58,526 nucleotides of DNA, from NCBI GenBank assembly GCA_022574255.1, contig JACZSK010000008.1:1-58526 (forward strand). Reading direction: 5' to 3'. Within the stretch, counting starts at the first letter, position 1. Every line of letters begins with the position of its first letter. The stretch is from Pseudomonadota bacterium. GTDB taxonomy: Bacteria > Pseudomonadota > Alphaproteobacteria > Sphingomonadales > SMXR01. The position numbers and the translations under genes are program-made. Below, in pieces: positions 14,071 through 55,692 of this stretch. The notes under the pieces were generated by a model that ran no database searches, had not been told where the DNA came from, and saw only the letters and a program-made list of their open reading frames with translations.

Positions 14071-14086
14071 TGGCACGATGTTTGCA
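14071..14086 (+). promoter_or_regulatory. Sigma-54 (RpoN) -24/-12 promoter TGGCACGATGTTTGCA
   Basis: Perfect match to TGGCACG-N4-TTGCA, 38 bp upstream of the 14124 start. Confidence 0.8.
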
Positions 14087-20815: not shown

Positions 20816-20913
20816 CGTCACGCAAGAGGGGCCCGGAGTCTATTGCCCTCTCCGGTGTTTTGGCCTGCAGCGCCAGCGCTTTCAATGGACCCCGGATCAA
20901 GTCCGGGGTGACG
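20816..20913. repeat. REP/BIME-like palindromic repeat, copy A
   Basis: CCCGGAGTCTATTG...TTCAATGGACCCCGGATCAAGTCCGGGGTGACGA; palindrome CCCCGGA-tcaag-TCCGGGG at 20890..20908. Confidence 0.8.
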
Positions 20914-20923
20914 AAGGAAGAAA

Positions 20924-20975
20924 GCCCTCTCCCTTGATGGGAGGGTGCCAGGGCAAAGAAGAGTGAGGGTGACGA
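20924..20975. repeat. CCCTCTCCCTTGATGGGAGGG-type REP, inverted relative of the 25.0-kb copy
   Basis: Reverse complement (CGTCACCCTCACTCTTCTTTGCCCTGGCACCCTCCC) resembles 24996..25042. Confidence 0.7.
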
Positions 20976-21008: not shown

Positions 21009-21980
21009 CTAGACCACCGCATCGCCCGGCTCGCCCGTATCCCGGTAGGCGTCCAGGTTTTCTTTAACCCGCAGGCCCATGGCGGCGCGGGTCTCGGTGG
21101 TGGCCGAGCCGATGTGGGGCAGCAGCGTTACGTTCGCCATGTCCGCTAACCCCGGCGCCAGTTGCGGCTCCCGCTCATAAACGTCGAGCCCGGCGCCGCC
21201 CAGATGTCCCGCCTTCAATGCCTCGACCAGCGCCGCCTCGTCGACCAGGGCCCCGCGCCCGGTGTTGATCAGATAGGCGCCCTGTTTCATCAGGCCCAGC
21301 CGGCGGGCGTTCATCAGATGGCGGGTCTCTTCGGTCAGTGCCGGGTGCAGGCTGACAAAATCGGCCTCTGCCAGCAGCGCGTCGATCCCCTCGCACCAGA
21401 TAATGCCCAGTGACGCCTCCAGTTCCGGCTTGCGGCTGCGTGAGGAATAAAGAACGTCCATGTCGAAGGCCCGGGCGCGGCGCGCCACCGCTCTGCCGAT
21501 GCGGCCCATGCCGATGATCCCTAGCGTCTTTCCCGAGACCCGGTGATGCAGGCTCTCGCCGACCGCTGAGCCAGCCCAATCGCCGTTGCGCAGCGCTGTC
21601 TCGCGCTCATGAAAGCCCCTGGCGGCGGCGATCATCAGGCCAATGGTCAGGTCGGCGGTATCGGCGGTCAGCACGTCAGGGGTGTTCGAAACCCGCAGGT
21701 TTTTGGTCCGCGCTGCGCCCAGGTCGATATGATCGACCCCGACGCCGAAGGAGGCAATGATCTTGAGGCTGGCGGGCAGGCGGGCGATAAATTCGGCATC
21801 GATCTTGTCGTAATAGACCGGCGCCAGCGCCCAGGCGCCCTGCAACGCGTCAAACAGGGCTTCGCCGGTCAGGCGATTATCCCCCTCGGGCGCGGTCAGG
21901 TCATAGTCGGCGTCCAGCGCCGCCATCACCGGCCCCGGCCAGTGTGCCGTCAGCACCAGTTTTTTCTTCTCTCCGGGCAT
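21009..21980 (-). CDS. D-isomer-specific 2-hydroxyacid dehydrogenase
   Basis: GKTLGIIGMGRIGRAVARRARAFDMDVLYSSR and INTGRGALVDEAALVEALKAGHLGGAGLDVYEREP. Confidence 0.95.
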   Translation of the reverse strand: MPGEKKKLVLTAHWPGPVMAALDADYDLTAPEGDNRLTGEALFDALQGAWALAPVYYDKIDAEFIARLPASLKIIASFGVGVDHIDLGAARTKNLRVSNTPDVLTADTADLTIGLMIAAARGFHERETALRNGDWAGSAVGESLHHRVSGKTLGIIGMGRIGRAVARRARAFDMDVLYSSRSRKPELEASLGIIWCEGIDALLAEADFVSLHPALTEETRHLMNARRLGLMKQGAYLINTGRGALVDEAALVEALKAGHLGGAGLDVYEREPQLAPGLADMANVTLLPHIGSATTETRAAMGLRVKENLDAYRDTGEPGDAVV

Positions 21981-22084
21981 CTGTTCGCCGGCGCTCCCTG
22001 TATTCCCGTCAGCGGGTATGGATCATTCCCCCCAATTGGCCTAAATCGAAGCAGTCCGTCAAACTGGAATTAGGGTGCAACCCC

Positions 22085-23233
22085 ATGATCCTGCCTTCGC
22101 AACGCCATCTTTTTTCGCTGCCCCGGGAGCTTTGCTACCTGAATGCCGCCTATATGACACCGCAGCCCAAGGCCGTTGAAGAGGCGGGATTGGCGGCCAC
22201 GTCGCGCCGCGCCCGGCCCTGGCAGCTCAGCGAAAAGGATTTTTTCACCGACGTCGAGCGCGCGCGGGAGCTGTTTGCCCGGCTGATCGGCGCCGCGCCG
22301 GATGATATTGCCATTATTCCCGCCGCCAGCTATGGCATAGCGGTGGCGGCGCGGAACCTGGATATAGCGCCGGGGCAAAAAATTATCGTCCTGCATGAGC
22401 AGTTCCCCTCGCATGTCTATAGCTGGTTGCGGTTGGCGGAAGAGCGCGGCGCGGTCGTCGAGACCGTCATGCCGCCAGCTTCGCCGGGGGAGGGCGGCTG
22501 GACCGAGGCTGTTTTGGCGAAAATAGAGGAATTTGGCGATGCGGTCGCCGCGGTGGCGATACCCAATTATCACTGGGCCAACGGCGCGCCGGTAGACCTG
22601 GTGCGGGTGGGCGCTGCCGCGCGGGCGGTGGGGGCTGCGCTTGTTCTGGATACCAGCCAGTCGATGGGCGCGGCGCCGCTGGATCTCGCCGCCGTTGATC
22701 CCGACTACATGGTGGCGGCGGGGTACAAGTGGCTTTTCTGCCCCTACGGAATATCCTTCCTCTATGTGGCGCCGCGCCACCAGGGCGGTGTGCCGCTGGA
22801 GGAAAACTGGATCAACCGGCTGGGCAGCGGGGATTTCGCCGGTCTTGTCGATTACCAGCCGGAATATCTGCCCGGCGCCCGGCGCTTCGACATGGGCGCG
22901 CGCGCCCTCTTTTCCGGCATGCCGGCGGCGGTGGCGGCGCTGCAACAATTGCTCGACTGGGGCGTTGAAAATATCGCCGAGACCCTGGCCAGCCATAACC
23001 GTGCGCTGGCTGAAATTTTTGCCGAAGCGGGCTATGCCGTGCCTGAAGAGGACGCCCGGGGCCCACATCTGATGGGGGTCACAGCGCCGGGCCCGCTGGA
23101 CGCCGGCTTTACCGCGAGGCTGAAAGAGAAGGGCGTCTCGGTGAGCATTCGTGGCGCTTCCATCCGCGTTGCACCGCACCTCTATAACGACCAAGAAGAC
23201 TTCGCGCGCCTGAAAGCCGCGCTTTCCGGCTGA
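22085..23233 (+). CDS. Class V aminotransferase-fold PLP enzyme (kynureninase/cysteine-desulfurase-like)
   Basis: LCYLNAAYMTPQPKAVEEAG..., LVLDTSQSMGAAPLDLAAVDPDYMVAAGYKWLFCPYGISFLYV. Confidence 0.9.
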   Translation: MILPSQRHLFSLPRELCYLNAAYMTPQPKAVEEAGLAATSRRARPWQLSEKDFFTDVERARELFARLIGAAPDDIAIIPAASYGIAVAARNLDIAPGQKIIVLHEQFPSHVYSWLRLAEERGAVVETVMPPASPGEGGWTEAVLAKIEEFGDAVAAVAIPNYHWANGAPVDLVRVGAAARAVGAALVLDTSQSMGAAPLDLAAVDPDYMVAAGYKWLFCPYGISFLYVAPRHQGGVPLEENWINRLGSGDFAGLVDYQPEYLPGARRFDMGARALFSGMPAAVAALQQLLDWGVENIAETLASHNRALAEIFAEAGYAVPEEDARGPHLMGVTAPGPLDAGFTARLKEKGVSVSIRGASIRVAPHLYNDQEDFARLKAALSG

Positions 23234-23294
23234 CCCTCTGTCATGCGCCGATCCTCCTTGCGTAACGCGCCTTGGCGGCGATTCCAGCCTTGCT

Positions 23295-23382
23295 GTCACT
23301 CCGGACTTGATCCGGAGTCTATTGCCTCATCTGGCTGTGCCGGCGTTTTCAATGGACCCCGGCTCGGGGGCCGGGGTGACGA
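23295..23382. repeat. REP/BIME-like palindromic repeat, copy B
   Basis: GTCACTCCGGACTTGATCCGGAGTCTATTG...GTTTTCAATGGACCCCGG...CCGGGGTGACGA, same family as 20816..20913. Confidence 0.8.
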
Positions 23383-23405: not shown

Positions 23406-23454
23406 TGTCTCAATTCGGGACGCTGTTTCACTTTGGGACAGGAACCTGTTCCTG
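23406..23454 (+). promoter_or_regulatory. Cluster of dyads, candidate enhancer-binding-protein sites upstream of the sigma-54 promoter
   Basis: TGTCTCAattCGGGAC (23406), TGTTTCActtTGGGACA (23424), perfect palindrome CAGGAAC-ct-GTTCCTG (23439..23454). Confidence 0.5.
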
Positions 23455-23524
23455 AATAGAGCGCTGACCGGCGGTGATCGGCCAAAAGTTCGCTAAGCCA
23501 TTGAAATATAAGGGGCGCCAAAAC

Positions 23525-23540
23525 TGGCATACGTCTTGCA
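23525..23540 (+). promoter_or_regulatory. Sigma-54 (RpoN) -24/-12 promoter TGGCATACGTCTTGCA
   Basis: GG and GC dinucleotides at consensus spacing; matches TGGCAYR-N4-TTGCA. Confidence 0.75.
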
Positions 23541-23550
23541 GTTCTCAAGG

Positions 23551-23677
23551 TGTCATTCTTCAAGACTTTGCCTGAGGTTAGAGGGATGACAGGTTGTTCC
23601 GAAAACCAGCCTAAGCCGTTGCCTGAACGGCTAGGCACTAAACTTTCGGCGGTCGCATCTGCGGCCGCCGTTTTTTT
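23551..23677 (+). ncRNA. Candidate sigma-54-dependent structured small RNA (or short mRNA of a small peptide)
   Basis: Predicted TSS ~23551; TGTCAT/ATGACA stem, 11-bp bulged hairpin GCCTaAGCCGTT-gcctg-AACGGCTAGGC (23609..23636), terminator at 23647..23677. Confidence 0.5.
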
Positions 23678-23708
23678 GTGCGTGGCGCTTCGAGGCTATT
23701 TATTTTAA
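23586..23708 (+). CDS. Candidate 40-aa small protein with a possible transmembrane segment, overlapping the sRNA candidate
   Basis: [45 protein letters not shown] 8 nt before ATG; runs through the terminator stem. Confidence 0.25.
23647..23677 (+). terminator. Strong intrinsic terminator
   Basis: CGGCGGTCGCA...TGCGGCCGCCG + TTTTTTT. Confidence 0.85.
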
Positions 23709-23719
23709 GATTAAAATAA
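23700..23719. promoter_or_regulatory. Perfect inverted repeat TTATTTTAA-GA-TTAAAATAA, candidate operator of the glutaryl-CoA dehydrogenase gene
   Basis: 9-bp arms, 2-bp spacer, ~87 bp upstream of the 23806 start. Confidence 0.45.
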
Positions 23720-23805
23720 TTCAGGATTGCATGCCGTTGGTCGAAGGTCTACAGAACGTCCAGCATCTGAAAAGCAAGACAAGAGCGTTCAGGAGGAGAC
23801 ACGGC

Positions 23806-24993
23806 GTGAGCAAATTGACCATCTGGCCCAAGTTTAACTGGGAAGATCCGCTGCTGCTGGAAGACAGCCTGAGCGAAGATGAACGCCTGATCCGTGACAG
23901 CGCCCGCGCTTACGCCCAGGACAAGTTGATGCCGCGCATCCTGGAGGCCAACCGCCACGAGATTTTCGACCGCGAGATCATGACCGAAATGGGCGCGCAG
24001 GGCCTCCTCGGCTCGACCCTGGAGGGCTATGGCTGTGCCGGAGTCTCGTCGGTGGCTTACGGCCTGATCGCGCGCGAGATTGAGCGCGTGGATTCCGCCT
24101 ACCGCTCGGTTATGTCGGTCCAGTCGAGCCTGGTGATGTATCCCATCTATGCCTACGGCACCGAGGAACAGCGGGAGAAATATCTGCCCAAACTGGCGAC
24201 CGGCGAACTGATCGGCTGTTTTGGCCTGACCGAGCCCGATGCCGGGTCTGACCCCGGCTCGATGAAAAGCCGCGCCAAGGCAGTGCAGGGCGGCTTCGTG
24301 CTGAAGGGCGCCAAGATGTGGATCAGCAATTCGCCGATCGCCGACGTATTCGTGGTCTGGGCCAAGGACGATGCCGGCGATATCCGCGGCTATCTGCTGG
24401 AAAAGGGCATGGAGGGGCTGTCGACCCCCAAGATCGAGGGCAAGTTCTCCTTGCGCGCCTCGGTCACCGGCGAAATTGTCATGGATGACGTATTCATCCC
24501 GGAGGAAAATATCCTGCCCGACGCGAAAGGGCTGAAGGGCCCGTTTGGCTGCCTGAACAATGCCCGCTACGGCATTGCCTGGGGGGCGCTGGGCGCGGCG
24601 GAATTCTGCTGGCACGCGGCCCGGCAATATGCCCTCGACCGCATCCAGTTCGGCCGGCCCCTGGCGGCGACGCAACTGGTGCAGAAGAAGCTGGCCGACA
24701 TGCAGACTGAAATCACCATCGGCCTGGCCGCCTGTCTGCAGGCCGGGCGGCTGAAGGACCAGGGCAAGCTGGCCCCGGCGGCGATCTCATTGCTTAAGCG
24801 CAATTCCTGCGGCAAGGCGCTGGATATTGCGCGGCAGGCGCGCGACATCCACGGTGGCAACGGCATTGTCGACGAGTTCCACGTCATCCGCCATATGATG
24901 AACCTGGAAACGGTGAATACCTACGAGGGCACCCACGACGTGCATGCGCTGATCCTGGGCCGCGAGATCACCGGCATCCAGGCTTTTTATTGA
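23806..24993 (+). CDS. gcdH: Glutaryl-CoA dehydrogenase (acyl-CoA dehydrogenase family); GTG start proposed
   Basis: [36 protein letters not shown]..., [17 protein letters not shown], ...[34 protein letters not shown]. Confidence 0.9.
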
Positions 24994-55458: not shown

Positions 55459-55692
55459 TATTTTTTCCCATATTTCCCAACATGCATTTTCGACCCGCTG
55501 TAAAGAGAGCAAGACCCGGGCCAAACAGGTGATTTTGGAAAAAACTGAGAAATATCAGCAGGTTATACCAAAACGAGGTTTGCCGCGGGCAAGCGAAAAC
55601 GTCCCAGACTGGGTGAATTGTATCAATTTGAAACGGCTGATCCGGGCTGGAGCGTCCCGGAACGGGATGGTGAAAATTGTATGCTTTTTGTT

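Follow-up and report, generated by a model that had tools for sequence, protein, structure and literature searches.

A candidate sigma-54-dependent small RNA of Kordiimonadales with twin loops and predicted target sites in Tad/Flp pilus genes

Introduction

In the window (the whole stretch of 58,526 nucleotides analyzed here), an aminotransferase gene (21944-23233) is separated from a gcdH-like acyl-CoA dehydrogenase gene (23731-24993; start codon ATG at 23731 or GTG at 23807), both on the forward strand, by a gap that contains a sigma-54 promoter element followed by several stem-loops. Does this gap hold an RNA gene of its own, and, if so, what would switch it on and which mRNAs would it control? 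The original prediction read the locus as a novel RpoN-regulated sRNA; an activator and a target, both absent from that prediction, are proposed here. We consider it probable, judging from comparative sequence analysis, that this is an autonomous, trans-acting sigma-54 sRNA gene, activated by a response regulator, whose loops pair with mRNAs of the Tad pilus, a surface-attachment structure, and block their translation.

Results

Organization of the sRNA Locus

All features described here lie on the forward strand. A pattern match identified the -24/-12 element TGGCATACGTCTTGCA at 23525-23540, where it had been located before; with C(-12) at 23539, the predicted transcription start falls at ~23551, which is also the first base of the TGTCAT...ATGACA stem, in agreement with the original prediction. 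Folding and a covariance model (R2, 69.9 bits) delimit a predicted sRNA of ~127 nt (23551-23677), made up of hairpin 1 (23551-23591), a linker (23592-23608; UGUUYCGAGUA-like in some members of the family), hairpin 2 (23609-23636), and an intrinsic terminator (23647-23677, with a stem at 23647-23670 followed by T7); hairpin 2 and the terminator are both present as previously claimed. The two hairpins are supported by folding, arm-swap, and covariation, and the terminator by folding and covariation. The 127-nt RNA folds at -60.3 kcal/mol, with z = -6.6 against dinucleotide shuffles. The original prediction thus had the anatomy and the type of element right, and it missed the following: two enhancer-type palindromes upstream (TGTCTCAATTCGGGACG at 23406-23422, a probable bEBP site, and TGTTTCACTTTGGGACA at 23424-23440), the recurrence of the arrangement in about 30 genomes, and the identity of the two loops. 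Both hairpins expose the same loop, UUGCCUGA(G), found as UUUGCCUGAG at 23567-23576 in hairpin 1 and as UUGCCUGA at 23619-23626 in hairpin 2, and near-invariant across all members.

Two further observations concern the surroundings of these features. An inverted repeat, GTCACTCCGGACTTGATCCGGAGTC...GGGGCCGGGGTGACG, at ~23294-23381 of the window has similar text near 20870-20960 and in L189, and looks like a dispersed intergenic repeat. In one member, L038 (genome G076), a linker motif, (T)GTTTTGAGTA, is expanded to three copies between the hairpins.

Distribution and Conservation of the sRNA Family

A DNA search of relatives yielded one syntenic copy (G013, L002), in which the promoter, palindromes, loops, and stems recur, and hairpin 2 differs from that of the window by compensating changes. 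A covariance model built from these two sequences (R1) found five further members and missed most of the others. When 84,980 named genomes were scanned with a pattern combining the promoter and the two loops, 43 stretches matched, 19 of which contain the hairpins; all 19 are from Kordiimonadales or probable Kordiimonadales MAGs, including Kordiimonas sediminis, K. marina, K. gwangyangensis, K. laminariae, Pseudokordiimonas caeni, and Eilatimonas milleporae. The remaining pattern matches (beta- and gammaproteobacterial, Bacteroidota, and other) had no matching hairpins and were judged to be chance. Model R2, built from 18 sequences, scored above 42 bits in 31 of 399 genomes of the order (families f1, f4, f6, and f7), and nothing above 36 bits was found in a class-wide sample of 385 genomes except in the window's own genome (the bit scores are clearly separated, although the E-values are approximate). 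In total, about 30 members were found, all in Kordiimonadales, a group of marine bacteria, and no Rfam family matched at its gathering score; on these searches, the predicted family is absent from Rfam and confined to Kordiimonadales.

The members have diverged considerably (the median pairwise identity among 21 of them is 0.67), with the loops constant, the stems drifting in sequence, and both hairpin stems kept. When hairpin arms were swapped between these 21 members, none of 5000 permutations reached the native stability for either hairpin (native means -13.4 and -17.8 kcal/mol; best permutations -10.7 and -12.7). In the 18-sequence alignment, 37 of the 45 pairs change on both sides (26.6 +/- 2.1 in shuffles), and the covariation score is 0.384 (0.206 +/- 0.014 in shuffles), above all 500 shuffled alignments. 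Sliding the partner by one column lowers the score to 0.21 or less; this control is somewhat generous, since the structure was derived from the same sequences, and the shuffles and the arm-swap are the stronger structural evidence. Of the refuting checks named in the original prediction, the one on conservation of promoter and hairpins in relatives is passed strongly; with no Rfam match at gathering score, the stems kept, covariation, and a fixed distance to the -24/-12 element (see below), a novel RpoN-regulated sRNA is the best-supported reading.

Gene order around the sRNA is also shared across the group: a DUF2336-like gene, the aminotransferase gene, and sometimes a Crp/Fnr gene precede it, and a PlsC-like acyltransferase gene and then a D-2-hydroxyglutarate-dehydrogenase-like gene usually follow (these domain names are our reading of the sequences). 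The transcript could in principle act in cis, as leader or attenuator of the gene that follows it, which is gcdH here, since in G000 and G013 it lies on the same strand as gcdH with its terminator upstream of that gene; we consider this extremely improbable, because the downstream gene varies by lineage (gcdH, the PlsC-like acyltransferase, and others) and in L060 and L065 is encoded on the other strand. In the window, gcdH lies outside the predicted transcript.

Promoter, Palindromes, and a Candidate Activator

For the stringent pattern TGGCAYN5TTGCW, 0.17 matches are expected in the window, which has two. Among the sRNA loci, nearly all members carry TGGCA-N7-TGC at a fixed distance: the relaxed form TGGYA-N7-TGC was matched in 28 of 30 loci, L232 has an element that the regular expression missed, and L255 is degenerate, so that the -24/-12 element is kept at a fixed distance from the 5′ end of the RNA in 29 of the 30 loci examined. 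There is a second perfect -24/-12 site in the window, TGGCACGATGTTTGCA at 14071-14086 (forward strand), whose core is the same as that of a PEP-CTERM gene promoter in G013; it is followed by a Shine-Dalgarno sequence and a 200-amino-acid ORF from 14124 (MFDMSGIPAAFARPG...), a further candidate sigma-54 gene.

Palindromes of the form TGTnYCAnnnTGRnACA are found upstream in most members, 54-120 bp away, at about -55, -66, -78, -90, -102, -108, and -119 from the -24 element, i.e., roughly one helical turn apart. The first palindrome of the window occupies the same place relative to -24 in G013 and G016, and the second has a counterpart at about -102 in G013, G016, G067, and G043. Allowing at most one mismatch and counting both strands, there are five rows in the window (0.71 expected). 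Genome-wide, the palindrome outnumbers its reversed pattern by 20 to 0 in G016 and by 8 to 0 in G013, and shows no over-representation in G000 (3 versus 2). A one-mismatch copy, TGTATCAATTTGAAACG, is also seen at 55619-55635 of the window, in a gap between minus-strand genes. Elsewhere, the palindromes precede PEP-CTERM protein genes (one of which has a perfect -24/-12 element 100 bp downstream of the palindrome) and, in G000, G013, and G016, one response-regulator gene that lies close to murI and the pnt genes.

This regulator (G000:C98:5508-7070; the gene with its leader palindrome, L189:5452-7070; orthologs in L190, L191, and L198-L222) has REC, AAA+, and Fis domains, and its loop reads GAFTGA in two orthologs and GSFTGA in the window's genome. 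It reaches none of the NCBIfam equivalog cut-offs, its nearest models being NtrC, AtoC, and LuxO; for PrsR (TIGR02915), it scores 348-371 bits against a cut-off of 502.6. Clear orthologs were found in 25 of the 30 genomes searched. In a set of 23 genomes selected independently of the sRNA, the regulator and the sRNA occur together in 17 and are both missing from 5, 1 has the regulator only, and none has the sRNA only; G001 has the regulator without a detected sRNA. Because of this co-occurrence and the palindrome in the leader of its gene, we name this NtrC/LuxO-like response regulator as the likely activator of the sRNA. Given this leader palindrome, the regulator is probably also autoregulated; nearly all extracted ortholog leaders contain TGTCC(T/C)GAAATGATACA-like sites, which lie ~45-65 nt ahead of the start codon. 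We also considered the regulator mRNA as a target of the sRNA, as luxO is of Qrr, and rejected it: the TCAGGCAAG of the G016 leader is not conserved in the other orthologs.

Predicted Target Sites in Tad/Flp Pilus Genes

We searched the member genomes for the loop complement, CUCAGGCAAA. Exact 10-mer sites (CTCAGGCAAA) lie mostly inside coding sequences genome-wide and are uninformative alone; in four genomes, sites close to start codons directed attention to Tad/Flp pilus genes, with several of these sites in tandem: tadG in G049 (CCUCAGGCAAAAUUCAGGCAACCAGACC-AUG) and in G058 (GACAGGCAAGCAGA-AUGCGGCUCAGGCAAAAC), cpaA and cpaB in G039, and cpaC in G013. Since this lead first came through the sites themselves, the test set was drawn from genomes chosen without them: 14 sRNA-bearing genomes, in which the tad cluster was located by its nearness to suhB and the region from -45 to +25 around the start codon was compared between 138 tad genes and 486 other genes of the same stretches. 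(In many Kordiimonadales, for example G049:C1, G058:C1, and G039:C22, about 10-40 kb separate the tad/flp locus and the suhB/MmgR sRNA gene.) Of all 6-mers, CAGGCA shows the strongest enrichment (30 of 138 tad genes versus 9 of 486 others, p = 5e-14, for genomes that are related, hence non-independent, and with heuristic start codons), and TCAGGCA and CAGGCAA are the two most enriched 7-mers in the tad initiation regions, in which the antisense 7-mers are absent. The 6-mer enrichment is robust to using the 5′ side alone (p = 6e-8), to removing similar windows (4e-8), and to using a reduced, seven-genome set (3e-5).

Over all genomes, sites are most evident in cpaA (12 of 15), tadG (10 of 15), and cpaF (8 of 17; sites in cpaF and tadC are partly fixed by the peptide), and tadB and tadE2 have no seed-complement sites. 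Codon conservation is not the whole cause of the sites, since in cpaF of G046 the site in the codons is lost (CAAGCA) and one appears just upstream of the AUG. The seed core is found in none of the 27 tad genes from genomes in which model R2 detected no sRNA (G094, G004, G005, G001, and G014), versus 36 of 138 (p = 7e-4). For G035, G076, and most other-family controls, the stretches examined yielded no tad locus. In the window's own genome, whose tad locus is on C112, the sites are weaker: CUCAGGCA in cpaC, 25 nt from its start, and UCAGGC 30 nt upstream of cpaD, with nothing beyond CUCAGGUAA at cpaA (the annotation of the locus is incomplete). G027 and G070 have 6-mer sites only.

These data bear on three other explanations. 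First, the RNA may be a real sigma-54-dependent trans-acting sRNA whose loops mainly serve other mRNAs, with the Tad sites secondary: complements of UUGCCUGA also occur near other starts (in tandem just before gene starts at L267:1322-1353 in G000:C51 and at L270:2250-2289 in G013:C30), and only part of the tad genes have sites. We regard this as unlikely, as the enrichment in tad genes is strong and goes together with the presence of the sRNA, and no other function recurred across genomes among the matches listed. Second, two identical loops would suit a protein sponge, i.e., an RNA that sequesters a protein on its two identical hairpins, and the window has an open 40-amino-acid frame (23586-23709) with a hydrophobic end and GAGG upstream, so that the transcript might instead be the leader for a small membrane peptide. 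Either is quite improbable: a sponge alone leaves unexplained why loop complements in tad mRNAs are restricted to genomes that have the sRNA, and the small protein was rejected on account of a stop codon inside hairpin 2 in the G013 frame.

Third, the loop is complementary to CUCUCAGGCAAAAGG, a conserved element of the glycine riboswitch aptamer, and the RNA might bind these riboswitches and modulate the glycine-cleavage genes. The exact 10-nt complement is present in riboswitches of G000, G039, G058, and G076, but those of G013, G016, and G019 read CAGGCCAAAG, CAGGCATCG, and CAGGCTTCAG, with no corresponding loss of the U residues from the sRNA loops; moreover, glycine riboswitches conserve this element in any case. 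We find this account very improbable, and rejected the glycine riboswitch as the main target because the loops do not follow the riboswitch changes. The 10-nt match to the aptamer core CTCAGGCAAA in L107, L119, L134, and L157 is probably a coincidence.

Discussion

Sequence comparison provides the promoter, the palindromes, the structure and its conservation, the co-occurrence with the regulator, and the enrichment of target sites; we infer that the gene is transcribed, which protein activates it, that the RNA depends on Hfq, that pairing takes place in vivo, and that the outcome is repression. In the proposed mechanism, the regulator would bind the palindromes ~55-120 bp upstream and activate sigma-54 polymerase at 23525-23540, giving an RNA of ~127 nt that would end at its own terminator. 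The twin UUGCCUGA(G) loops would then pair with sites of the CUCAGGCAA type where translation of Tad/Flp mRNAs begins, the main targets being the operon-heading cpaA and tadG, often with two adjacent sites, so that twin loops on twin sites might pair cooperatively, or one sRNA might hold two mRNAs. Translation would be blocked, as suggested by sites that cover the ribosome-binding region and the first codons; the pilus would probably be turned off, since the loops match the start sites of pilus genes; and the U-rich terminator makes assistance by Hfq likely. With its promoter, enhancer-type sites, terminator and structure, and seed-target matches, the locus has the features of sigma-54-dependent trans-acting sRNAs, and we would place it in that class.

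Through the sRNA, the regulator would repress Tad pili, and the same palindromes precede genes of PEP-CTERM surface proteins. There may thus be an alphaproteobacterial lifestyle switch, for which we see about even chances, in which one regulator and one palindrome control the regulator itself, PEP-CTERM proteins, and an sRNA that silences Tad at several operon heads, making it an independent counterpart of LuxO-Qrr. In the open-access literature, we found no sRNA described for Kordiimonadales and no report of an sRNA acting on Tad/Flp pilus genes through sigma-54. Since a promoter, a candidate activator, a seed, and a target operon can all be named for this locus, post-transcriptional control of attachment is directly testable here.

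Several known systems resemble parts of this locus. CrcZ, GlmY/GlmZ, and NrsZ are other intergenic sRNAs under bEBP/sigma-54 control, from which the present sRNA differs in structure, motifs, and clade. The alphaproteobacterial sRNA suhB/MmgR (RF00519) gives a full-length, sub-threshold match at 23614-23684, comprising CUAAACUUU and the terminator; membership was rejected at 31.6 bits against a cut-off of 41, a separate canonical suhB is present in the same genome (C81, 55.6 bits), and model R2 gives no match at suhB loci. In the RpoN-dependent PEP-CTERM regulons of PrsK/PrsR, -24/-12 promoters are combined with upstream enhancer-type sites (PMC9850573), as they are in PEP-CTERM genes here, but the regulator described here is below the PrsR model cut-off, and the regulon includes an sRNA.

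A further likeness is in control logic. In the Vibrio Qrr system, the response-regulator bEBP LuxO and sigma-54 drive an intergenic sRNA that base-pairs with the 5′ regions of mRNAs (PMC2680268), and the site of SypG in V. fischeri, TTCTCANNNTGMDWN (PMC10162802), resembles the core of the Kordiimonadales palindrome TGTnYCAnnnTGRnACA. The control logic predicted here resembles that of LuxO/SypG-Qrr. Qrr is, however, neither a match at the Rfam gathering score nor among the weak matches; the present sRNA differs in its two identical loops, its structure, its clade, and its predicted Tad targets, and a link to autoinducers belongs, so far, to the Qrr system only. Our best reading is therefore a Qrr-like but unrelated sRNA that would repress Tad pili; if true, it would be a second, apparently unrelated invention of the Vibrio-type bEBP/sigma-54/sRNA switch.
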